Origin: Microbispora catharanthi
GTDB taxonomy: Bacteria; Actinomycetota; Actinomycetes; Streptosporangiales; Streptosporangiaceae
NCBI RefSeq assembly: GCF_006334915.2
Contig: NZ_VDMA02000009.1
Span: forward strand, 1 to 64,000
DNA length: 64,000 nucleotides
Direction of reading: 5' to 3'
The translations under genes and the position numbers were made by a program. The notes under the pieces were generated by a model that made no database searches, was not told the origin of the DNA, and saw only the letters and a program-made list of their open reading frames with translations. Of this stretch, positions 49,983-60,729 are shown piece by piece (the first letter of the stretch is position 1; every line of letters starts with the position of its first letter).

Positions 49983-50717
49983 TCAGGCGTCGGCGGCTTC
50001 GACGTCGGCGATCACGCACGAGATGTTGTCGGGTCCGCCGCCCTCGTTGGCCAGCTCGATGAGCCGGTGGACCGTCTCCTGCGGATCGGCCACGGTGGTG
50101 AGCACGTGGTGCAGCACCTCGGGTTCGAGCACGGAGGTGAGCCCGTCGGAGCACAACAGGTAGCGGTCGCCCGGGAACGCCTCGCGCAGCGACAGGTCGG
50201 GCTCGGCCAGGCCGCTCGTCTCCAGCGCCCGCAGCAGCAGGGAGCGGCGCGGATGGCGGGCGGCCTGGTCGGGGCTCATGCGCCCGTCGTCCACCAGCGA
50301 CTGCACCAGCGTGTGGTCGCGCGTGATCTGGTAGAGCGCGCCGTCACGCAGCATGTACGCCCGCGAGTCGCCCACATGGGCCAGGGCGAACTTCCCGTGG
50401 CCGTCCCACAGCATCGCGGTGACCGTGGTGCCCATCCGCTCGAGCGCCGGGTCCTGCGCGGCGAGGTCGCCCAGGCGCTGCCCCGCCTCCCGTACGGCGT
50501 CCGCGAGGGCGGCGACGACGTCGGCGGGACCCGGACCGTCCTCCAGCCCGGCCAGTGTGGAGATGACGGCCGCACTGGCGACCTCGCCGTGTCCGTGCCC
50601 GCCCATCCCGTCGGCGATGGCGAGCAGGCGCTCGCCGGCGTGCACCGAATCCTCGTTGTTGGCACGCGAACGCCCGACGTCCGACCCAGCGGCGTACCGA
50701 ATACGGTTGTGCGTCAT
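49983..50717 (-). CDS. PP2C-type Ser/Thr protein phosphatase
   Basis: 244 aa, cytoplasmic. Complete PPM fold with metal-binding Asp residues: AAGSDVGRSRANNEDSV, LLAIADGMGGHGHGE, AHVGDSRAYMLRDG, LLCSDGLT, GGPDNISCVIADVE. No transmembrane segment, unlike PstP. Start and promoter lie back-to-back with the DNA methylase gene (58 nt apart), and a Ser/Thr kinase follows that gene. The phosphatase probably reverses phosphorylation by that kinase. Confidence 0.94.
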   Translation of the reverse strand: MTHNRIRYAAGSDVGRSRANNEDSVHAGERLLAIADGMGGHGHGEVASAAVISTLAGLEDGPGPADVVAALADAVREAGQRLGDLAAQDPALERMGTTVTAMLWDGHGKFALAHVGDSRAYMLRDGALYQITRDHTLVQSLVDDGRMSPDQAARHPRRSLLLRALETSGLAEPDLSLREAFPGDRYLLCSDGLTSVLEPEVLHHVLTTVADPQETVHRLIELANEGGGPDNISCVIADVEAADA

Positions 50718-50737
50718 GGTTTTGAGTAAACCATTGG

Positions 50738-50768
50738 TTGAGTGACTTCACAAGCACGGTGCTAGTCT
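50738..50768 (+). promoter_or_regulatory. Promoter of the DNA methylase gene, leaderless type
   Basis: -10 TAGTCT (50763-50768) ends 7 nt before ATG 50776 and no ribosome site is present. A -35-like TTGAGT (50738-50743) lies 19 nt upstream; a second TTGAGT copy (50722-50727) lies just inside the divergent phosphatase promoter. Confidence 0.5.
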
Positions 50769-50775
50769 CATGTTC

Positions 50776-52866
50776 ATGAGCCACGACGCCCAGGCCGACA
50801 ACCCGGCGGACACGACGGCGCGCCCGGCCGTCAGCCCGCTCGAGGCCGCCGTCGAAGCGGCGGTCGAAGCGACCGTGAACGCGGGCGACATCGCCCGGCT
50901 CGCCGACGTCGGCAGGGCCGCGGTCAGCAACTGGCGCCGCCGGTACGAGGACTTCCCCCAACCGGTCGGAGGTACCGCCTCCAGCCCGCTTTTCTCGCTT
51001 CCCGAAGTGGAGGCGTGGCTACGCAGGAACGGCAAGTCGTTCGAGGTGTCCCAGGGCGACCGCGTCTGGCAGCGGCTGCGGGCGTCGGCCGACGACCTGC
51101 GCCTGGGCGAGGTGCTGGGGGAGGTCGGGGCGTTCCTGCTCTACACGCTCCGCGACCCCGACGGCTGGAAGCGGCTGTCCGCCGCCCCCGACTTCGCCGT
51201 AGGGCTCCCGGGTGCGGTGGCCGAGACGACAACCGACCTGCCTCCGCGTGCGGGGGACGCGACGCCGGTCGAGCCCGGCCTGCTCCGGCTGGTCGCCGGG
51301 ATGGCCGAGCGGAACGGCGTGGCCGGCACGTTCGAGTTCCTCTGCGAGCGGTACGCCGAGGCGCACAGCCGCAGGCTGGCACTGACCCGGCCCGACGTGG
51401 CCGCCCTGATGACCCGGCTGGCCTGCGCGGGGGCGCGCACGGTGCTCGACCCGGCGTGCGGCATGGGCACCCTCCTGCTGGACGCCGCCGGGGCCGGTGG
51501 GGCGGGAGACGAGGTGCGGCTGCTCGGCCAGGACGCCAACGAGACGGTCGCGCTGCTCGCGGCGCTGCGGCTGCTGCTGCGCGGGCGGGACGCCCGGGTC
51601 CTCCCCGGGGACGCGCTGCGGCACGACGCGTTCCCTCTGGACCGGCCGATGGACGGGCTCGGGGACGCGCTCGCGGACGCGGTGGTGTGCGACCCGCCGT
51701 TCAACGAGCGGGCCTGGGGCCACGAGGATCTCGTCGGCGATCCGCGCTGGCAGTACGGCATGCCTCCCCGGGGTGAGCCGGAGCTGGCCTGGGTGCAGCA
51801 CTGCCTCGCCCACGTGCGGCCCGGCGGGCTGGCGGCCGTCCTGATGCCGGGCGCCGCCGCGAGCCGCCGCCCGGGACGCCGCATCCGGGCGAACCTGCTG
51901 CGGACGGGCGCGCTGCGCGCGGTCTTCACGCTGGCGCCCGGTGGTCCCGACCTGTGGCTGCTGCGCCGTCCCGAGCCCGGGGAGCGGCAGCCCGGCGCGA
52001 TCCTGGTGGCCGACGCGGGAGACGACCCGGCCTCCGTCGAGGCGGTCTGGCGGGCCCACCTCGCGAAGAGCGAACTCCCGCGCGGTGGCCGCACGGTCAG
52101 GATCATCGACATCCTCGACGACGAGGTGGACGTGAGCCCGGCGCGGCACCTGTCACCCCGGGTCGACACGCGGGGCTTTCCCGCGGCCAGGGAGCGCTTC
52201 CTGGAGGCGGTCGCGGAGCTGGCCGACGACGTGCCCGACCTGGAGGTGCTCACCGGCGGCGCGGCGGGCTGGGACGCGTCGTGGGCGACCGTGGCCGAGA
52301 TGGCCAGATCCGGGCTGGTCACCATCAGGCACTCGACGCTGCGGGCGCTGCCCGCCGATGCTTCCGAAGGCGAGGCGTCTGACGGCGGGGTGCCCGACGG
52401 CGGGGTGCCCGAGGGTGGGGTGCCCGTGCTGACGGCCGACGACGTCGCGGCCGGGACGGCGCCGTCGCGGCGGATCCCGCGTGCCCCCGGCCTGGTCGCC
52501 GTACGACCGGGAGACGTCGTGGCGTCGGCCGTCACCGCGCGGGTGGTCGCGGGGGAGGGGGCGGTCCTGGGCCCCCATCTCAGCCTTTTCCGCGTCGATC
52601 CAGACAAGGTGGATCCCGAGTTCCTGGCCGGGTTCCTGCGCTACGCGGCGGGCGGCGGCCGGCCGCATCTGGGCAGCAGCCGCGTGGAGGCCCGCCGGGC
52701 CCGCGTCCCCCAGCTTCCCCTGGCCGTCCAGCGGACGTACGGCACGGCCTTCCGGCGGCTGCTCGCCCTGGAGGACGGCCTGCGCGAGGCGGCCGCCGCG
52801 GGGGAGGCGCTCGCCCGCCTCGGCGTCGATGGGCTGATCGACGGACGCCTCCGCCCTCATGGGTGA
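50776..52866 (+). CDS. N6-adenine DNA methylase with N-terminal HTH and specificity-like C-terminal half
   Basis: 696 aa. N-terminal region about residues 35-80 reads as a helix-turn-helix (DIARLADVGRAAVSNWRRRY). The central HsdM-type methylase has SAM motif I TVLDPACGMGTLLLDAAG (about 215) and catalytic motif IV CDPPFNERAWG (Asp-Pro-Pro-Phe in place of Asn-Pro-Pro-Phe/Tyr). The C-terminal about 200 residues (PGLVAVRPGDVVASAVTARV, SLFRVDPDKVDPEFLAGFLRY) resemble type I specificity-subunit target recognition. A 15-bp tandem repeat at 52381-52425 encodes VPDGG units. No hsdR or other nuclease is nearby. The gene is bracketed by a protein phosphatase and a protein kinase. ATG 50776 fits the leaderless promoter; ATG 50770 is possible. 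Orphan methylase with a regulatory role is the likely reading. Confidence 0.85.
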   Translation: MSHDAQADNPADTTARPAVSPLEAAVEAAVEATVNAGDIARLADVGRAAVSNWRRRYEDFPQPVGGTASSPLFSLPEVEAWLRRNGKSFEVSQGDRVWQRLRASADDLRLGEVLGEVGAFLLYTLRDPDGWKRLSAAPDFAVGLPGAVAETTTDLPPRAGDATPVEPGLLRLVAGMAERNGVAGTFEFLCERYAEAHSRRLALTRPDVAALMTRLACAGARTVLDPACGMGTLLLDAAGAGGAGDEVRLLGQDANETVALLAALRLLLRGRDARVLPGDALRHDAFPLDRPMDGLGDALADAVVCDPPFNERAWGHEDLVGDPRWQYGMPPRGEPELAWVQHCLAHVRPGGLAAVLMPGAAASRRPGRRIRANLLRTGALRAVFTLAPGGPDLWLLRRPEPGERQPGAILVADAGDDPASVEAVWRAHLAKSELPRGGRTVRIIDILDDEVDVSPARHLSPRVDTRGFPAARERFLEAVAELADDVPDLEVLTGGAAGWDASWATVAEMARSGLVTIRHSTLRALPADASEGEASDGGVPDGGVPEGGVPVLTADDVAAGTAPSRRIPRAPGLVAVRPGDVVASAVTARVVAGEGAVLGPHLSLFRVDPDKVDPEFLAGFLRYAAGGGRPHLGSSRVEARRARVPQLPLAVQRTYGTAFRRLLALEDGLREAAAAGEALARLGVDGLIDGRLRPHG
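52381..52425. repeat. 15-bp tandem repeat (3 units) in the DNA methylase gene
   Basis: Three copies of GACGGCGGGGTGCCC-type units (last one with three changes) encode a Val-Pro-Asp-Gly-Gly linker between the methylase and specificity-like halves. In-frame copy change would alter domain spacing only. Confidence 0.8.
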
Positions 52867-52976
52867 CGCGGCGTGGAGCTTCCCAGCTGAGAGAGTCCTG
52901 TCCACCCGGCCGCTGAGCCCGAGCATCGCGGACGAATCCGGTAGCTTTTTCCCCGATAGGCCGACGGGAGGGGCGC

Positions 52977-53879
52977 ATGGTCATCGGCGACCGGTATGAG
53001 CTGGACGACCTCCCCCTGGGGCAGGGCGGTATGGGCGCCGTGTACGGCGGGCACGACCGGCGGCTCGACCGCAAGGTGGCGGTGAAGTTCCTGCGGCTGC
53101 CCGACGGCCCGGACGAGGAGTTGCAGCGCCGGTTCATCCGCGAGGCGCGGATCCTCGCGAAGCTCGACCATCCGGGCGCGCCCGTGCTGTACGACTTCGG
53201 CACCTACGAGCAGCGGCTCTTCCAGGTCATGCAGTTCATCGAGGGCGTGACGGTCGCCGACCTGCTGAGCGAGCACGGCCCGCTGCCGGTGCCGTGGGCC
53301 GCGGCGATCGCCGCCCAGGCGTGCGCCGTGCTGACCGCCGCCCACGAGCTGTCGATCTGCCACCGCGACCTCAAGCCGACCAACCTCATGCTCTGCCCGG
53401 ACGGCAGTGTCAAGCTGCTCGACTTCGGGCTCGCCATGCTGCGCGAGGCGGACGTCGCGGGGTTGACGGCGCAGTTCACCCGGATCGGGCAGATCCTCGG
53501 CACTCCGGCGTACATGTCCCCCGAGCAGATCCAGCGGGGTGTCGCCGGGCCGAAGAGCGACCTGTACTCCCTCGGCTGCGTGCTGCACGAGATGCTGACC
53601 GGCAACCAGCTGTTCACCGGGCCGACGGAGTACGCCGTGTTCGACAAGCAGGTGAAGGAACGGCCGCCCCGGGTTACCGGGGTCCCCGCCGAGCTGGACC
53701 GTCTCATCGCCGAACTGCTGGAGAAGGAGCCGGACAACCGGCCGCCCGACGCGCACACGCTGTTCGAGCGGCTGCAGCCGTTCGCGGTCGACCTGCCCCC
53801 GCTGCCGGGCTTCCTCAACCCGTCGTCGGTCCCCAGCCCCGGGCGCATGTACGCCCAGATGGTCGGCCGCGTCCGCTGA
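52977..53879 (+). CDS. Soluble eukaryotic-type Ser/Thr protein kinase
   Basis: 300 aa, just the catalytic domain. Gly-rich loop LGQGGMGAVYGG, VAVKFLR (ATP Lys), CHRDLKPTNLML catalytic loop, LLDFGLAM (DFG), and YMSPEQIQ for APE. The activation loop is rich in Thr (GLTAQFTRIGQILGTPAY). It ends about 25 residues after the kinase fold; there is no membrane anchor or sensor domain, unlike PknB. GGGAGGGG precedes the ATG. It follows the methylase gene by 110 nt on the same strand. Possible substrate: the methylase itself or the phosphatase. Confidence 0.93.
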   Translation: MVIGDRYELDDLPLGQGGMGAVYGGHDRRLDRKVAVKFLRLPDGPDEELQRRFIREARILAKLDHPGAPVLYDFGTYEQRLFQVMQFIEGVTVADLLSEHGPLPVPWAAAIAAQACAVLTAAHELSICHRDLKPTNLMLCPDGSVKLLDFGLAMLREADVAGLTAQFTRIGQILGTPAYMSPEQIQRGVAGPKSDLYSLGCVLHEMLTGNQLFTGPTEYAVFDKQVKERPPRVTGVPAELDRLIAELLEKEPDNRPPDAHTLFERLQPFAVDLPPLPGFLNPSSVPSPGRMYAQMVGRVR

Positions 53880-54957: not shown

Positions 54958-56214
54958 CTATGCCGGCGTGCGCGTACGCCGGTTCACGGCGGCCAGCAGC
55001 CCCACGGCCGCCAGGCTGGAGATCGTGGCCGACCCGCCGTATGACACGAACGGCAGCGGCAGCCCCGCGACCGGCAGCAGGCCCATGGTCATCCCCACGT
55101 TCACGAACGTCTGGAACGCAAGCCAGCACACCACCCCGCCGGCCACCGCCCTGCCGAACGGCGAGGGGCTCCTGGCCGCGATCCACAGGCCGCGCCACAG
55201 CAGGGCGAGCATCAGCAGGATCACGCAGGCGGCGCCGAGGAAGCCGAGCTCCTCGCCCGCGACCGTGAAGATGAAGTCGGTGTGCTGCTCGGGCACGAAA
55301 TGGCCCGCCGTCTGCTCGCCGTGGAACAGGCCCTTGCCGAGCAGGCCCCCGGAGCCGATCGCGATCCTGGCCTGGGTGGCGTTGTAGCCCATGCCCATCG
55401 GGTCGGCGTCCGGGTCGGCCAGCACCATCAGGCGCTGGAGCTGGTAGGGCCGGATGAGGTCGAGCCGCCACACCAGGAGCAGTCCGGCGGCCCCGGCTGC
55501 GGCGAACGCCGCGAACCACCTCTTGGGCGCGCCGGACACCACGATCATCCCGGTGGTCAGCACTAGGAAGACGAGCGCGGTGCCGTGGTCGGGCTGCAGC
55601 GCGATCAGCCCGACCGGCAGCGCGGCGAGGCCCAGGGCGAGCAGCACGGCCCCGGCGCCCGGCCTGCGCTCGCCGTCGCGCGGCTCGCCCAGCGCCGTCG
55701 CGAGCGCGAGCACCGTGGCCGCCTTGGCGAACTCGGACGGCTGGAACTGCAGCCCGTCACCGAGCACGATCCAGGCGTGCGAGCCGTTGATCGTGCGGCC
55801 CAGCGGGGTCAGCACGGCGACCAGCCCGGCCAGCCCGAGGAGGTACAGCACCGGGACGTAGGCCCGCAGCACCCGCAGGTCGATCCGCGAGACGGCCCAC
55901 ATGAGCACGAAGCCGATGCCCACGCTGAGCGCCTGCCGCTGCGGCAGCGTCGAGCCCGGCTCGTTGCGGGTGGCCGACCACACGAGCAGCAGCCCGATCG
56001 CCGACAACGCGGCCGCCGGCAGCACCAGCCCCCAGGCGGGGAGGAAGGCGAGACGCGCCCACCCCCTGCGCCTGGTCGCCCGGCTCGCCGGCAGCCGTAC
56101 GGACAGGGGACCGAGTGCCGTCACCGCGTGCCTCCAACCGGCTGAGCCCTGCCCGTCCGACCGCTGCCCGTCCGACCGCTGCCTGTCTGAGCCCTGCCCG
56201 TCACCGCGCGCCAC
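54958..56214 (-). CDS. rodA: SEDS peptidoglycan glycosyltransferase RodA
   Basis: 418 aa, about ten transmembrane helices. It polymerises lipid II during elongation together with the class B PBP encoded just upstream. Seen are WLGLLLVWSATRNE-like first helix, GDGLQFQPSEFAKAATVLALA, LQPDHGTALVFL (catalytic-site Asp), EQHTDFIFTVAGEELGFLG and PLPFVSYGGSATISS. The start overlaps the mrdA stop by 14 nt. The first 25 residues are a low-complexity Asp/Gly/Gln/Ser stretch from a 15-bp repeat, so a downstream start is possible. Confidence 0.94.
   Translation of the reverse strand: MARGDGQGSDRQRSDGQRSDGQGSAGWRHAVTALGPLSVRLPASRATRRRGWARLAFLPAWGLVLPAAALSAIGLLLVWSATRNEPGSTLPQRQALSVGIGFVLMWAVSRIDLRVLRAYVPVLYLLGLAGLVAVLTPLGRTINGSHAWIVLGDGLQFQPSEFAKAATVLALATALGEPRDGERRPGAGAVLLALGLAALPVGLIALQPDHGTALVFLVLTTGMIVVSGAPKRWFAAFAAAGAAGLLLVWRLDLIRPYQLQRLMVLADPDADPMGMGYNATQARIAIGSGGLLGKGLFHGEQTAGHFVPEQHTDFIFTVAGEELGFLGAACVILLMLALLWRGLWIAARSPSPFGRAVAGGVVCWLAFQTFVNVGMTMGLLPVAGLPLPFVSYGGSATISSLAAVGLLAAVNRRTRTPA
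56149..56202. repeat. 15-bp tandem repeat at the rodA N-terminus
   Basis: Two exact CTGCCCGTCCGACCG units, a third degenerate one and a partial fourth (plus-strand reading) encode the Ser-Asp-Gly-Gln-Arg repeats at the cytoplasmic N-terminus of RodA. Confidence 0.8.
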
Positions 56215-58315
56215 CCGTCCCGGCGAACGCGACGGGAGGCAGGGAGGCGGACCGCGTCCCCCTGGCGTCCTTCTTGTCCTTCTTGCCGTGCTTTTTTCCG
56301 TCGTGCTTCTTCGCCTTATGGGTCAGGGCGGCGATGCCCTCCCAGATCTCGCGGGCGGCGGGGGCCGCCGTGGTCCCGCCCGTGCCACCCTGCGAGACGA
56401 CGACCACCACGACATACTTGGGCTTCTTCACCGGGCCGAAGGAGGCGAACCACGAGGTGTCCTTCCTGCCGTACGCCTCGGCGGTGCCGGTCTTCCCGGC
56501 GACCGGCAGACGCGTGAACGCGTACCCCTCGAACGCGCCCGCGGCTGTGCCCGTGCGCGGCACGCCGGCGAGTGCGTCGCGGATGAACCGCAGCGTCTTG
56601 CGCGAGGCGTCGATCTTCCCCACCACGGGCGGGGTGATCGTGCGGACCACCGTGCCGTCGGGGCGCACGACCTGCTTGCCGATCCTGGGGCTGAAGACCG
56701 TGCCGCCGTTGGCGAGCGCGGCGTACCCGCGGGCGAGCTGGAGCGGCGTCACCAGCACGTCGCCCTGGCCGATCGAGAAGTTGGCCGCGTCGCCGGCCCA
56801 CCAGACCCCGCCGGAGCGGCAGTTGTCGGCGGCGAGCGCCTTGAGGTAGGCCGCCCGCTTGCGGTCGGACATCTCCGGATAGCCGGTTTTGGCGCGACGG
56901 CAGGAGTCCGCCTTGGTCCGCTCCCAGTTGGCCTTCTTCCAGGCGCGGTCGGGCACCCTTCCCTGAGCCTCGTGCGGCAGGTCGACGCCGGTGGGCGTGC
57001 CGAACCCGAACTCCCTGGCCATCGCCTGCATCGGGTCCTTGGGGTGTTTGACCGGCTTGAGCCCCCCGTCGTGCCGCCACATCTTCTCCGCGAAACGGTA
57101 GAAGATCGTGTCGCAGGACACCACCAGGGCCCGGTGCATGTCCATCCGGCCCAGTTCGGCGCTCTCGAAGTTGTGGAACACCCGGCCGCCGATCTTGTAA
57201 CCGCCCGGGCAGTCGTAGGAGGCCCGCAGCGAGTAGCCCGCCTTCGCCGCCGCGGCCGTCGAGGTCACCTTCCAGGTGGAGCCCGGCGGCCACTGCCCCT
57301 GCACGGCGGCGCTGACCAGCGGCAGGTCCTCGTAGTCGTGCTGCGAGATGCCCCCGGTCCACACGCCCGGGTCGTAGGTGGGATAGTCGGCGATCGCCGT
57401 CACCCGCCCGGTCTTCGCCTCCAGCACCACCGCCGCGCCGCTGTCGGCGGGCTCGCCCCGCTTGCGCGCGGCGGTCACGGCCCGGGCCAGCGCCCGCTCA
57501 GCCACCTCCTGGATGCGCGCGTCGACGCTGGTCACCAGCGTGTCCCCGGCCACGGCGGCCTCCTCGCGGATCAGGCCGGTGATCTTGCCCGTGCTGTCCA
57601 CCGCCACCTCTCTGATCCCGGTGCGCCCGGCCAGCTCGCGGTCGTACTGCGCTTCGAGGCCGTCGCGGCCGATCAGCTCCGGGCCGCCCTCGGGGTCGTC
57701 GGGGGAGGGCGGCTGCAGGTAGCCGAGCACGTGCGCCGCGGCCGAGCCGAGGGGGTAGGTCCTGACCGGCCGCAGCGCGGTGCTGACACCGGGGAACTCG
57801 TCCTGCCGCTCCGCGATCCACAGCGCCGTGCGCACGCTCACGTCGTCCGCGATGACGATCGGCTGATACGGCGAGCCGGGCCAGCACGGCCGGGGCACGT
57901 CCCCGGCGCACAGCCGGGCCCGGTCGGCGATCTCCTGGTAGGGCCGGCCAAGGGCCCGGGCGAGCCGGGCCAGCACGTCCTTCCCGCCGTCGGGCTGGTG
58001 GATGAGGGCCATGTAGTCCACCGACACCTGCGGTCTGGTCTCGTTGGCCACCAGCGGCCGGCCGCGTACGTCGAGGATCCGCCCCCGCACCGGCGGCAGG
58101 ACGACCGAGCGCGCCCGCGACTCCGTGGCCGCCCTGACGTACGACGGGCCGGTGACGATCTGCAGGTACCACAGCCGCCCGAGCAGGGTCAGCATGAGCG
58201 CGGTCACCACCGCGAACACGAGCGTGAGGCGGCCCTGGGGCCGGTTGCGACCCCGGTTGAGAGGGCGCTGCTTGACGCTCCTACGCAAGCCGCCTCCCTC
58301 GCGCGTACGGATCAC
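56201..58315 (-). CDS. mrdA: Class B penicillin-binding protein 2 (elongation transpeptidase)
   Basis: 704 aa. One membrane helix (about residues 28-50), then a pedestal domain and a transpeptidase domain with the three active-site motifs: STWK (about residue 345), Ser-x-Asn as SCD in LVVSCDTIFY, and KTGTAEA (about 607). A Lys/His-rich tail (about 670-690) follows the enzyme domain. It cross-links new peptidoglycan with RodA, guided by MreB-C-D. Start overlaps the mreD end by 35 nt; the N-terminal basic stretch before the helix supports this start. Confidence 0.95.
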   Translation of the reverse strand: MIRTREGGGLRRSVKQRPLNRGRNRPQGRLTLVFAVVTALMLTLLGRLWYLQIVTGPSYVRAATESRARSVVLPPVRGRILDVRGRPLVANETRPQVSVDYMALIHQPDGGKDVLARLARALGRPYQEIADRARLCAGDVPRPCWPGSPYQPIVIADDVSVRTALWIAERQDEFPGVSTALRPVRTYPLGSAAAHVLGYLQPPSPDDPEGGPELIGRDGLEAQYDRELAGRTGIREVAVDSTGKITGLIREEAAVAGDTLVTSVDARIQEVAERALARAVTAARKRGEPADSGAAVVLEAKTGRVTAIADYPTYDPGVWTGGISQHDYEDLPLVSAAVQGQWPPGSTWKVTSTAAAAKAGYSLRASYDCPGGYKIGGRVFHNFESAELGRMDMHRALVVSCDTIFYRFAEKMWRHDGGLKPVKHPKDPMQAMAREFGFGTPTGVDLPHEAQGRVPDRAWKKANWERTKADSCRRAKTGYPEMSDRKRAAYLKALAADNCRSGGVWWAGDAANFSIGQGDVLVTPLQLARGYAALANGGTVFSPRIGKQVVRPDGTVVRTITPPVVGKIDASRKTLRFIRDALAGVPRTGTAAGAFEGYAFTRLPVAGKTGTAEAYGRKDTSWFASFGPVKKPKYVVVVVVSQGGTGGTTAAPAAREIWEGIAALTHKAKKHDGKKHGKKDKKDARGTRSASLPPVAFAGTGGAR

Positions 58316-58865
58316 GTGAACTGTCCCGTGATCTGGGCACCCGCCCGAACGACCGGCGGCGGGGCAGCAGGGCGAGCGCCGCCGCCACGAGCGCGGCCAG
58401 GCCGACGGTCCAGGCGACGGCGCCGGGCGCGAGGGCCGTGCCCCACGGCGTGCCGTCGAGCAGGGCCGCGAGCACGCCCCCGGCGAGCGTCGCGCCCAGG
58501 GCCACGGCGGCGGCGACGGCGGCGCGCCGCCCGGCCGTGCCGTCCGCGGCGACCCGTGCGCACACCCACCCGGCGAGGCACATGACGAGGGCGAGCCGCC
58601 CTATGGTGTGGTCGGCGGGCGGCGCGATGTCGGCGGCCAGGCCCGCGGCGAACCCCAGGAACGCGCCCGCTCCTCCCCCCGCGGCGCCCCGCTCAGGCAA
58701 CCCCCTGGTCTCCGGCCTGGGCCGCAGACGCGGCGCGAGCGCGACGACCGCGACCAGCACGACGTCGGGGTGGCCGCCGGGCAGCGACAGCCCGTTGACC
58801 ACGGCGACCTGGAGCACCGGTGCGACGAGGACGACGAGCACGGACAGGACGACCGCCTTCATCAC
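58281..58865 (-). CDS. mreD: Rod shape-determining protein MreD
   Basis: 194 aa. Five to six hydrophobic helices with VVLSVLVVLVAPVLQVAVVNGL at the N-terminus and GFAAGLAADIAPPADHTIG (the conserved 'GL..D' of MreD). It links MreC and the synthase pair in the membrane. It overlaps mreC by 4 nt and mrdA by 35 nt. A low-complexity insert (about residues 50-70) separates helices 2 and 3. Confidence 0.9.
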   Translation of the reverse strand: MMKAVVLSVLVVLVAPVLQVAVVNGLSLPGGHPDVVLVAVVALAPRLRPRPETRGLPERGAAGGGAGAFLGFAAGLAADIAPPADHTIGRLALVMCLAGWVCARVAADGTAGRRAAVAAAVALGATLAGGVLAALLDGTPWGTALAPGAVAWTVGLAALVAAALALLPRRRSFGRVPRSRDSSRDPYARGRRLA

Positions 58866-59698
58866 GCCCCCTTCGCCTTCTTCGAGCCGCTCTTCGCGGC
58901 GTCCGTATCCCCGCCCCCGGCCTCGCCTTCGCCGGCGGACGCGTCCGCCGCCGCGCCGTCCGGCTGTGGTCCCAGCACCACGGTGACGAGGTCGAGCGCG
59001 GTGAATCGGGCGAAGGGACGCACGAGCGCCGTCCTGGTCAGCGCGTCCGGCGCGGGCTCCACCGTGACCACCGTGCCGATCGGCACGTCCGGCACGTACG
59101 GCCGCATGTCGCGCGAGCCCAGCGTCACCACCCGGTCGCCGGGCTTCACCTCCGCGGAGGGGTTGAGCAGGCTCAGCCGCAGCAGGCCGCGCTCGGGGAC
59201 GCCGGTCACCAGGCCGACCTCCCGGGAGCCCTCGAGCCGGGCCCCGATCGAGGCGCCGGAGGCCGTGGCCAGCTGGACCGTCGCCGTGCCGGGACCGGAT
59301 CGCAGGATCCGGCCGACCAGCCCGTCACCGTCGAACACGGTCATGTCGCGGTCCACGCCGCCGTCGGAGCCGGTGTCGACGGTGACCGTGCCGTCCCGGC
59401 CGAAGCCGATGACGTGGGCCGACGCGACCCGGTAGCCGTCCGCCTGAGCGGGGGACGGGGTCGTGCGGCGGGCGGCCAGCAGGTCGGCGCGCAGCCGGGC
59501 GTTCTCGCGTTCGAGCTCCTCCAGGCGCCGCTCGCCCGACGCCCAGCGGACGCCGGCGGACGCCGCGTCCTCCAGCCCGCCGTACACGGCCGACCCGAAC
59601 GCCCGCAGCGGCTCGAGTGGTGTGACGGTGTCGGCTGCGATCAGGGCGGCGGAGACGAGCGCCAGCAGCGCGGGCGCCCGGCGACCGGCGGCCCTCAT
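58862..59698 (-). CDS. mreC: Rod shape-determining protein MreC
   Basis: 278 aa. N-terminal membrane anchor (about 8-25), coiled coil (ERRLEELERENARLRADLL, about 55-80) and the two beta-barrel MreC core (VIGFGRDGTVTVDTGSDGGV, LVGRILRSGP, GDRVVTLGSRDMRPYVPDVPIG). The tail is acidic and Ala/Gly-rich. It starts inside the mreB stop (ATGA) and ends inside the mreD start. It is the periplasmic-side activator of PBP2-RodA. Confidence 0.94.
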   Translation of the reverse strand: MRAAGRRAPALLALVSAALIAADTVTPLEPLRAFGSAVYGGLEDAASAGVRWASGERRLEELERENARLRADLLAARRTTPSPAQADGYRVASAHVIGFGRDGTVTVDTGSDGGVDRDMTVFDGDGLVGRILRSGPGTATVQLATASGASIGARLEGSREVGLVTGVPERGLLRLSLLNPSAEVKPGDRVVTLGSRDMRPYVPDVPIGTVVTVEPAPDALTRTALVRPFARFTALDLVTVVLGPQPDGAAADASAGEGEAGGGDTDAAKSGSKKAKGA

Positions 59699-60729
59699 CG
59701 TCGCGTTTCGGGGAGGAACACGTCCTGCATGTCGTCGAAGCGCTCGACGCACCGGCCCGCGCCCAGCACCACCGACTGGAGCGGCTGGTCGACGAGGTGG
59801 ATCGGCATGCCGACGGCCTTTTCGAGCCGTCCGGCGAGCCCGTCGAGCAGCGCGCCGCCGCCGGTCAGCACGATGCCGTTGTCGATCAGGTCGCCCGCCA
59901 GCTCGGCCGGGCACTGGTCCAGCGTGGTCTGCACGGCGTCGACGATCGTCTGGACCTGGTCCTCGATCGCCTCCCTGACCTGCGCCCGGTTGATCGTCGC
60001 GGTCTTGGGCAGGCCGGTCACCAGGTCGCGGCCCCGGATCGGCAGCGGTGTGGTGTCGTCGCCGCCGGGCCGCGCGCTGCCCAGCTTGATCTTGACGTGC
60101 TCGGCCGTGCGCTCGCCGAGCATCAGGGAGTGCTCCTTCTTGACGTAGTTGACGATCGCCTCGTCGAGCTCGTCGCCGCCGACCCGCACGGACTTCGACA
60201 CGACCACCCCGCCGAGCGAGACGATCGCGACCTCCGTCGTGCCGCCGCCGATGTCCACGACCATGTTGCCGGTCGTGTCGCCCACGTTGAGTCCCGCGCC
60301 GATCGCCGCGGCCATCGGCTCCTCGATGATGTGGACGCGGCGGGCGCCCGCCTCGTACGCCGCCTCCCTGACCGCGCGCTGCTCCACGCTCGTGGTGCCG
60401 CTCGGCACGGCGACGACGACCCGGGGCCTGGCCAGGTAGCGGCTCTTGTGCGCCACCTGGATGAAATGCCGCAGCATGCGCTCGGCCGCGTCGAGGTCGG
60501 CGATCACGCCGTCCTTGAGCGGGCGCAGCGTGGCGATGTGGGGCGGGGTCCGCCCGATCATCTCCTTCGCCGCGGTCCCGACCGCCACGATCCTGTCCGT
60601 GTGCAGGTTGATCGCCACCACCGACGGCTCGTCGAGGACGACGCCCTTCTTGCGCACGTACACGAGCGTGTTGGCCGTGCCGAGATCGACCGCCATGTCC
60701 CGGCCGAGCAATCCCCACGGGAAACCCAT
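59695..60729 (-). CDS. mreB: Actin-like cell-shape protein MreB
   Basis: 344 aa from ATG 60729. Actin fold: phosphate-1 DMAVDLGTANTLVYV, VVAVPSGTTSVEQRA, phosphate-2 DIGGGTTEVAIV, adenosine region VLTGGGALLDGL. It forms membrane-bound filaments that place the elongation machinery; in mycelial actinomycetes it is mostly needed for spore-wall synthesis. A GTG at 60762 would add 11 residues (MLSLLSESWSA); the ATG is preferred because GFPWGLLGRDMAV is the expected N-terminus. First gene of the five-gene mre operon; its promoter must lie in 60730-60827. Confidence 0.95.
   Translation of the reverse strand: MGFPWGLLGRDMAVDLGTANTLVYVRKKGVVLDEPSVVAINLHTDRIVAVGTAAKEMIGRTPPHIATLRPLKDGVIADLDAAERMLRHFIQVAHKSRYLARPRVVVAVPSGTTSVEQRAVREAAYEAGARRVHIIEEPMAAAIGAGLNVGDTTGNMVVDIGGGTTEVAIVSLGGVVVSKSVRVGGDELDEAIVNYVKKEHSLMLGERTAEHVKIKLGSARPGGDDTTPLPIRGRDLVTGLPKTATINRAQVREAIEDQVQTIVDAVQTTLDQCPAELAGDLIDNGIVLTGGGALLDGLAGRLEKAVGMPIHLVDQPLQSVVLGAGRCVERFDDMQDVFLPETRR

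Follow-up and report, generated by a model that had tools for sequence, protein, structure and literature searches.

Which job does a DNA methylase-like protein do when its gene lies between those of a Ser/Thr phosphatase and a Ser/Thr kinase? Three such genes are found in the window, by which we mean the whole 64,000-nucleotide stretch of DNA analysed, which opens a 306,893-base contig of Microbispora catharanthi (genome of 9.25 Mb in 68 contigs). The initial annotation had proposed either phospho-controlled epigenetic regulation or a minimal defence system.

The phosphatase, methylase-like and kinase genes

ORF calls and Pfam matches over cut-off confirmed the three genes and their positions as first annotated. 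A PP2C-type Ser/Thr phosphatase of 244 aa (PP2C) is encoded on the minus strand at 49983..50717 (PF00481, 44.4 bits). It is separated by a divergent intergenic region of 52 bp (50718..50769) from the plus-strand gene of the methylase-like protein MT (50770..52866, 698 aa; N6_Mtase, 95.4 bits), for which a second ATG at 50776 is a possible alternative start. The kinase gene, STK (52977..53879, plus strand, 300 aa; Pkinase, PF00069, 159.4 bits), follows 110 bp downstream of MT on the same strand; STK is a kinase domain only, with no further domain over the Pfam cut-off beyond kinase-superfamily models. It contains the strings GQGGMG, VAVK and HRDLKPTN, and PP2C contains RANNEDS, DGMGGHG, GDSRAY, SDGLT and GGPDN, which we take to be the catalytic motifs of the two enzymes. 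Against the NCBIfam Stp1/IreP model, PP2C scored 210.9 bits, slightly below the cut-off of 230.

The annotated neighbours of the trio encode an SDR, a CGNR zinc finger protein, a DUF2293 protein, FtsW/RodA, a PBP with a transpeptidase domain and MreC. No HsdR or other restriction subunit is among them, which bears out the initial annotation, and neither is a recognised effector or nuclease. The FtsW/RodA, PBP and MreC genes (54958-60718) adjoin the trio in Microbispora; they are not near it in 32 of 45 named trio loci.

Conservation of the trio

The proposal of a functional module had been made to depend on the three genes remaining neighbours in related genomes, a check that the trio survived. 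MT was matched in 15 of 15 genomes of the genus, our own included, and PP2C, MT and STK occur together in all 14 same-genus relatives, the PP2C gene of L040 being cut by a contig end. DUF2293 and FtsW adjoin the trio in 14/14 of these relatives, and in every Microbispora genome examined the trio occupies one syntenic place. A wider set of 63 loci from named genomes, partly the same genomes as the same-genus set so that the counts are not additive, comprised 48 loci with close homologues of MT and 15 with distant methylases (L123-L137). PP2C lies divergently beside MT in 45 of the 48, with STK also downstream in 43 of these 45. The two exceptions, L098 and L099 (both MAGs), have PP2C and MT and no STK in the stretch examined, which at L099 ends 2.5 kb downstream; the remaining three loci (L114, L117 and L119) hold an MT paralogue with neither PP2C nor STK. 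The 45 loci come from Microbispora, Planotetraspora, Sphaerimonospora, Streptosporangium, Bailinhaonella, Acrocarpospora, Herbidospora, Planomonospora, Umezawaea, Amycolatopsis, Solihabitans and the two MAGs; the genera belong to the Streptosporangiaceae and Pseudonocardiaceae. None of the 13 other tested ORFs of the window was found nearby in 32 of the 45. PP2C, MT and STK thus form a conserved unit whose flanks change.

Outside this set, a phylum sample of 396 genomes, with few near relatives, gave no STK match at E 1e-130 except our own, and PP2C was found beside none of 37 STK-adjacent MT rows of other clades.

Linkage and co-divergence of MT and STK

We also started from the kinase. In 296 genomes of the class we took the 80 kinases nearest to STK (E up to 1e-65). 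An MT-family gene precedes 44 of them on the same strand within 1.5 kb, and 58 within 15.5 kb. The other 22 have no such listed MT in the 15.5 kb before them, and one of these kinases (G019:C7) itself stands directly upstream of an MT. With 50 kinase matches spread over the 9.25 Mb of our genome, chance would by our estimate produce such linkage in about 1% of cases. The distances of MT and STK are correlated (r 0.86, n=55, 0/2000 permutations), also in a reduced set (r 0.59, n=20, 0/5000 permutations); the two proteins co-diverge.

A tree of 94 kinases places 42 of the 45 linked ones in a single group of 48 rows (SH-aLRT 82, not starred), with those of L071, L202 and L223 outside; the six unlinked rows of the group also come from MT loci. 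Among the best 30 of the 50 kinases of our genome, only that of the window and that of locus L055 are inside this group. Since every kinase in the tree other than our own was taken from an MT locus, the test that starts from the kinase has the smaller bias of the two. Because the trio is co-inherited and MT and STK co-diverge, control of MT through phosphorylation by STK and PP2C is likely, as far as gene content and distances can tell.

Architecture and constraint of MT

The AF2 model of MT (mean pLDDT 86) starts with a helix-turn-helix (HTH), continues with an HsdM-like domain and ends in a part that resembles half an HsdS and includes a long helix. The HTH, a predicted MerR-like winged one (50866..51039, plus strand, residues ~33-90), was also modelled alone (pLDDT 82); it then resembles MerR-like binders, namely BldC, excisionases and CarA/CarH, with modest scores, the best being BldC at Z 6.2 over 53 residues, and a Foldseek search with it gave no match at E 0.001 or better. 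The HsdM-like methyltransferase domain (51046..52164, plus strand, residues ~93-465) superimposes on type I M subunits with Z of about 28 (28.5 to 3lkd_B; 27.8 to PacII M1, 7vs4_A, by VIA-align), and MT gave a profile match to PacII M1 (7vru_A) at E 1.3e-44. The HsdS-half-like target-recognition part with its long C-terminal helix (52168..52842, plus strand, residues ~467-691 of the model) has profile matches to the S subunits 5ybb_D and 3okg_A.

Our genome carries a second gene of the MT family (G000:C68:125007-126983; L003, L056), with NPPF in motif IV and no adjacent kinase or PP2C. Together with its relatives (L330-L340), it was collected from 12 Microbispora genomes, with NPPF in 12/12. 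Within-genus dN/dS was calculated over 12 genomes each for MT and this paralogue. In the trio MT it was 0.013 for the HTH, 0.244 for the methylase core and 0.266 for the S-like part, versus 0.104, 0.172 and 0.332 in the paralogue; over 13 within-genus comparisons, STK gave 0.104 and PP2C 0.178. In the trio MT the HTH is therefore frozen and the methylase core drifts, yet the core is still under purifying selection.

Motifs I and IV

The SAM motif I of MT, DPACGMG (51448..51468, plus strand, residues 227-233), is intact, and DP[AS]CGxG is retained in most rows of the family. Motif IV is DPPF (51691..51702, plus strand, residues 308-311) in place of the NPPF of type I M subunits. Over 54 trio rows it is DPPF in 52, DPPL in one and HPPF in one; two trio-type loci show HPPF, L050 (with STK) and L051 (without adjacent STK). 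In the 37 STK-adjacent rows lacking PP2C, the first residue is H in 17, D in six, G in five, A in three and N in five, plus one NLAV.

The Asn is present in 6 of 91 kinase-adjacent MT rows (one being the NLAV; three contig-end rows excluded) versus 27 of 60 rows without an adjacent kinase. Kinase adjacency was nevertheless rejected as the cause of Asn loss: the raw counts are strong but confounded by descent, and the link was not significant once phylogeny was controlled (of 8 independent pairs, 1-3 supported it and 0-1 opposed it across 200 random pairings; median p 0.5).

In EcoKI HsdM, the exchange of Asn for Asp reportedly abolishes activity. A passage of PMC10050889 lists Asp among the usable first residues of motif IV in methylases, and one of PMC9613975 gives the pocket mutants N276A/F279A of PacII M1 as having lost m6A activity. 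MT relatives with His, Ala or Gly at this position are therefore probably inactive, while Asp, a listed residue, would fit an active as well as an inactive enzyme. With another residue in place of the Asn of motif IV, and with stronger selection on the HTH than on the methylase core, methylation by the trio MT is doubtful. The interpretation of the initial annotation is partly supported.

A conserved element between PP2C and MT

Alignment of the intergenic region over trio loci revealed a conserved element on the minus strand (50725..50755) with the promoter-like hexamers TTGTGA (50748-50753) and TTTACT (50725-50730), 17 nt apart and directed towards PP2C. TTGTGA-N17-TnnnnT is present in 52 of 53 distinct regions (TTTACT in 47), with L098 as the exception. 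In 16 dereplicated sequences, conservation of the spacer was 0.81, versus 0.61 and 0.49 in the flanks. A candidate operator, TGTGAA-N5-TCAAC (50737-50752), lies across this spacer; its TCAAC is found in 13 of the 16 sequences, with TACAC or TTCAC in three. This element would be the binding site of the MT HTH.

Allowing up to 3 mismatches, the full 29-mer of the element has a single occurrence in the genome. The short core occurs 3 times exactly and 57 times with at most one mismatch, compared with 14 for a reversed control pattern; many of the 57 could be coding, and we do not claim a large regulon, although one may exist.

We then searched the upstream regions of 86 dereplicated non-trio MTs for a half-site derived from the trio loci. 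It occurred 54 times versus 6.9 expected from GC-matched windows, with at least one half-site at 34 loci versus 5.8 expected (four loci without a matched window contribute nothing to the expectation). Unbiased counts before the same genes gave TACACA and TGTGAA as top 6-mers and AGTCAAC and GTTCACA as top 7-mers. A passage of PMC5859096 describes BldC as binding direct repeats head to tail. Half-sites 9 bp apart occurred 16 times in the non-trio set versus 0.13 expected, with 0-2 at the other spacings from 6 to 22; the spacing was noticed and counted in the same sequences, and 13 of the 16 repeats belong to one clade of one genus, probably Streptomyces. As a rule for the family the strict 9-bp direct repeat fails: among 86 non-trio rows only 16 have it, and among 27 trio-type rows 14. 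It is absent from the other 13 trio-type rows, those of the window's genus included, where the window carries the looser TGTGAA-N5-TCAAC; the repeat is a hint at most.

BldC and other MerR-like winged HTH proteins resemble the predicted fold of the MT HTH at modest scores. They differ in that the latter heads a 698-aa methylase-like protein, and the BldC half-site, AATTXXXX(C), is unlike the candidate half-sites of MT.

Sister genes in type I restriction-modification operons

The second kinase of our genome in the 48-row group lies at L055:7700-17866 (contig 44). There, HsdM, HsdS, HsdR and a TPR-matching kinase come after a sister of MT with SPPF in motif IV, all in one direction; PADLOC called the MT sister MTase_I (PDLC03037, 651 bits). 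Beside it, an ORF at L055:5943-7724 had no Pfam match and the opposite ORF (L055:5880-7742) no PADLOC match. HsdM, HsdS and HsdR also lie between MT and kinase at 13 of 14 loci with the kinase 1.5-15.5 kb downstream of MT (L278-L288, L291 and L292), again in one direction. The Asn of motif IV is present in 11 of the 14 MTs of these operons (the 13 loci and L055).

The link to restriction-modification (R-M) is not universal. It is ruled out as such by L289, which has no HsdM, HsdS or HsdR match between MT and kinase; none was seen within the stretch examined at L290 and L293 (kinase 18 and 26 kb away), and L294-L297, with a close kinase, show no MT match in the 12-13 kb examined.

These actinomycete operons share with the trio a sister MT and a kinase of the same families; the trio differs in lacking HsdM, HsdS and HsdR and in having PP2C. 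With type I R-M enzymes in general, such as PacII M1, MT shares the HsdM-like fold and HsdS-half-like end. It differs as a single chain with its own HTH and DPPF in place of NPP[FYW], and the trio has a kinase and PP2C beside it instead of HsdR. Since the MT and STK families also bracket HsdM-HsdS-HsdR in type I R-M operons, their ancestral job was probably tied to DNA defence. No description of the trio or of an MT-HsdMSR-kinase operon was found in open-licence PubMed Central: known domains stand here in an uncommon but conserved arrangement that is undescribed in the open-licence literature searched.

Comparison with Pgl and MADS

The initial annotation had pointed to Pgl. The comparison holds in its logic, a kinase and a DNA methylase in one system, for which a passage of PMC4365076 proposes phosphorylation signalling; it fails in the Pgl features tested. 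Pgl/type 2 BREX comprises PglW, PglX, PglY and PglZ, whereas our genome has no PglZ over cut-off (one match to PF08665, 23.6 bits, cut-off 25, on another contig), the annotated neighbours include no PglY/BrxC-like ATPase, and the small STK scored 48.4 bits against the PglW model NF033442 (cut-off 990), so it is not the large multi-domain kinase. With MADS (methylation-associated defence system), the likeness consists of weak MT matches to mad1 and mad2 and a broad STK match to mad6. Both proteins are far below the NCBIfam cut-offs (MT, 14.4 versus 720 bits for MAD2; STK, 134.7 versus 460 for MAD6).

A proposed role for the trio and its alternatives

We propose that the trio is an autoregulated DNA-binding switch, set by kinase and phosphatase and related to kinase-bearing type I R-M systems, with methylation doubtful; the chances that this is correct seem to us about even. 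The MerR-like HTH of MT would bind TGTGAA-N5-TCAAC-like sites in the divergent PP2C/MT promoter, and bound MT would govern how its own genes (MT-STK) and PP2C are transcribed. The phosphorylation state of MT would be set by STK and PP2C, and its HsdM/HsdS-like body would be retained as a sensor that binds DNA and/or SAM, its methyl transfer being probably weak or lost. In favour of the switch we count the conservation of the trio amid changing flanks, the linkage of the closest kinases to MT-family genes, the correlated distances of MT and STK, an HTH held far more tightly than the core, the promoter element with half-sites before non-trio MTs, HPPF at L050 and L051, and the sister genes around HsdM-HsdS-HsdR. 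These are computational results, from which we infer that the HTH binds the element, that both enzymes act on MT and that its catalysis is reduced, as well as the direction of descent and the output. Against this switch speak the intact motif I, the purifying selection on the core, the listing of Asp as usable in motif IV and the non-significant link of kinase adjacency to Asn loss on the tree, as well as the 22 unlinked kinases among the closest 80, the absence of STK at L098 and L099 and of the strict repeat in 13 of 27 trio-type rows. More tentative is a bolder version, in which a retired DNA methyltransferase has become a kinase-set transcription switch: its HsdM/HsdS body with a MerR-like HTH would sense DNA or SAM and read its own operator, a dedicated kinase writing its phosphorylation and PP2C erasing it, the sister genes forming a kinase-controlled layer on type I R-M operons.

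MT could instead be an active orphan methylase, a single-chain M-S enzyme that methylates its own motif with Asp and whose activity STK and PP2C switch as epigenetic control. DPPF in 52 of 54 trio rows makes Asp look like a kept residue, one that PMC10050889 lists, in the passage cited, as usable; besides an intact motif I, MT retains the S-like part and, in motif IV, PP and F. HPPF at L050 and L051, an HTH far more constrained than the core and the reported inactivity of the EcoKI exchange argue the other way, as do the PacII M1 mutants without m6A activity (same passage of PMC9613975), and we consider this reading unlikely. Equally unlikely, in our view, is a stand-alone defence, with MT as the detector of foreign DNA, STK halting infection by phosphorylating targets in the cell and PP2C resetting the system. 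The sister genes in type I R-M operons and the signalling proposed for Pgl in that passage of PMC4365076 fit it, and STK matches PADLOC PD-T4-6 (PDLC04042, 314 bits) and mad6, but 35 PADLOC models match STK, so these kinase models are broad. Nor is a recognised effector or nuclease among the annotated neighbours; defence genes would be expected to be patchy, and the trio is in every Microbispora genome examined, with DUF2293 and FtsW adjoining in all 14 relatives. The "minimal defence system" of the initial annotation has support as a relationship, through the sister genes that bracket type I R-M; the trio itself was found at one syntenic place in each Microbispora genome examined. The switch and defence readings overlap, as a switch may serve defence. 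That three unrelated genes stand together by accident is very improbable: PP2C looks like a general Stp1-type phosphatase and was found beside none of the 37 STK-adjacent MTs of other clades, but 43 of the 45 named loci show the same gene order, the window's other tested genes were not found at 32 of these 45, the shared promoter region is conserved, and MT and STK co-diverge.

If the switch is real, it would link Ser/Thr phosphorylation to R-M proteins outside Pgl/BREX and MADS. Were its descent from a restriction enzyme and its regulatory output as we infer, it would also show how part of such an enzyme can turn into a regulator. The trio offers a concrete operator, an enzyme pair and a catalytic-residue question that are testable in a soil actinomycete. 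Judging by the sister MT-HsdM-HsdS-HsdR-kinase operons, phospho-control may be built into some type I R-M systems, a point of relevance to the way in which these systems keep from damaging their own cell.

Variants of the family

Four MT relatives (L198, L200, L201 and L235) have GPPS in motif IV and DSACGVG in motif I, and a kinase gene follows each of them after about 120 bp; they are clearer candidates for inactive methylases than the MT of the window. Shorter relatives with D/E/H-PP-A/T/V in motif IV and no close-clade kinase downstream occur at L074, L239-L243 and L245-L247. In a clade with HPPF or HPPY (L185-L193, L210, L213, L214, L221, L224, L234 and L238), the kinase lies 0.7-1.05 kb downstream, and between it and MT is a short ORF whose product looks membrane-bound by eye. 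Some Streptosporangium and Planomonospora loci (L089, L093, L095, L096 and L111) carry, besides the PP2C of the trio, a second PP2C gene 1.3-2.3 kb from MT.
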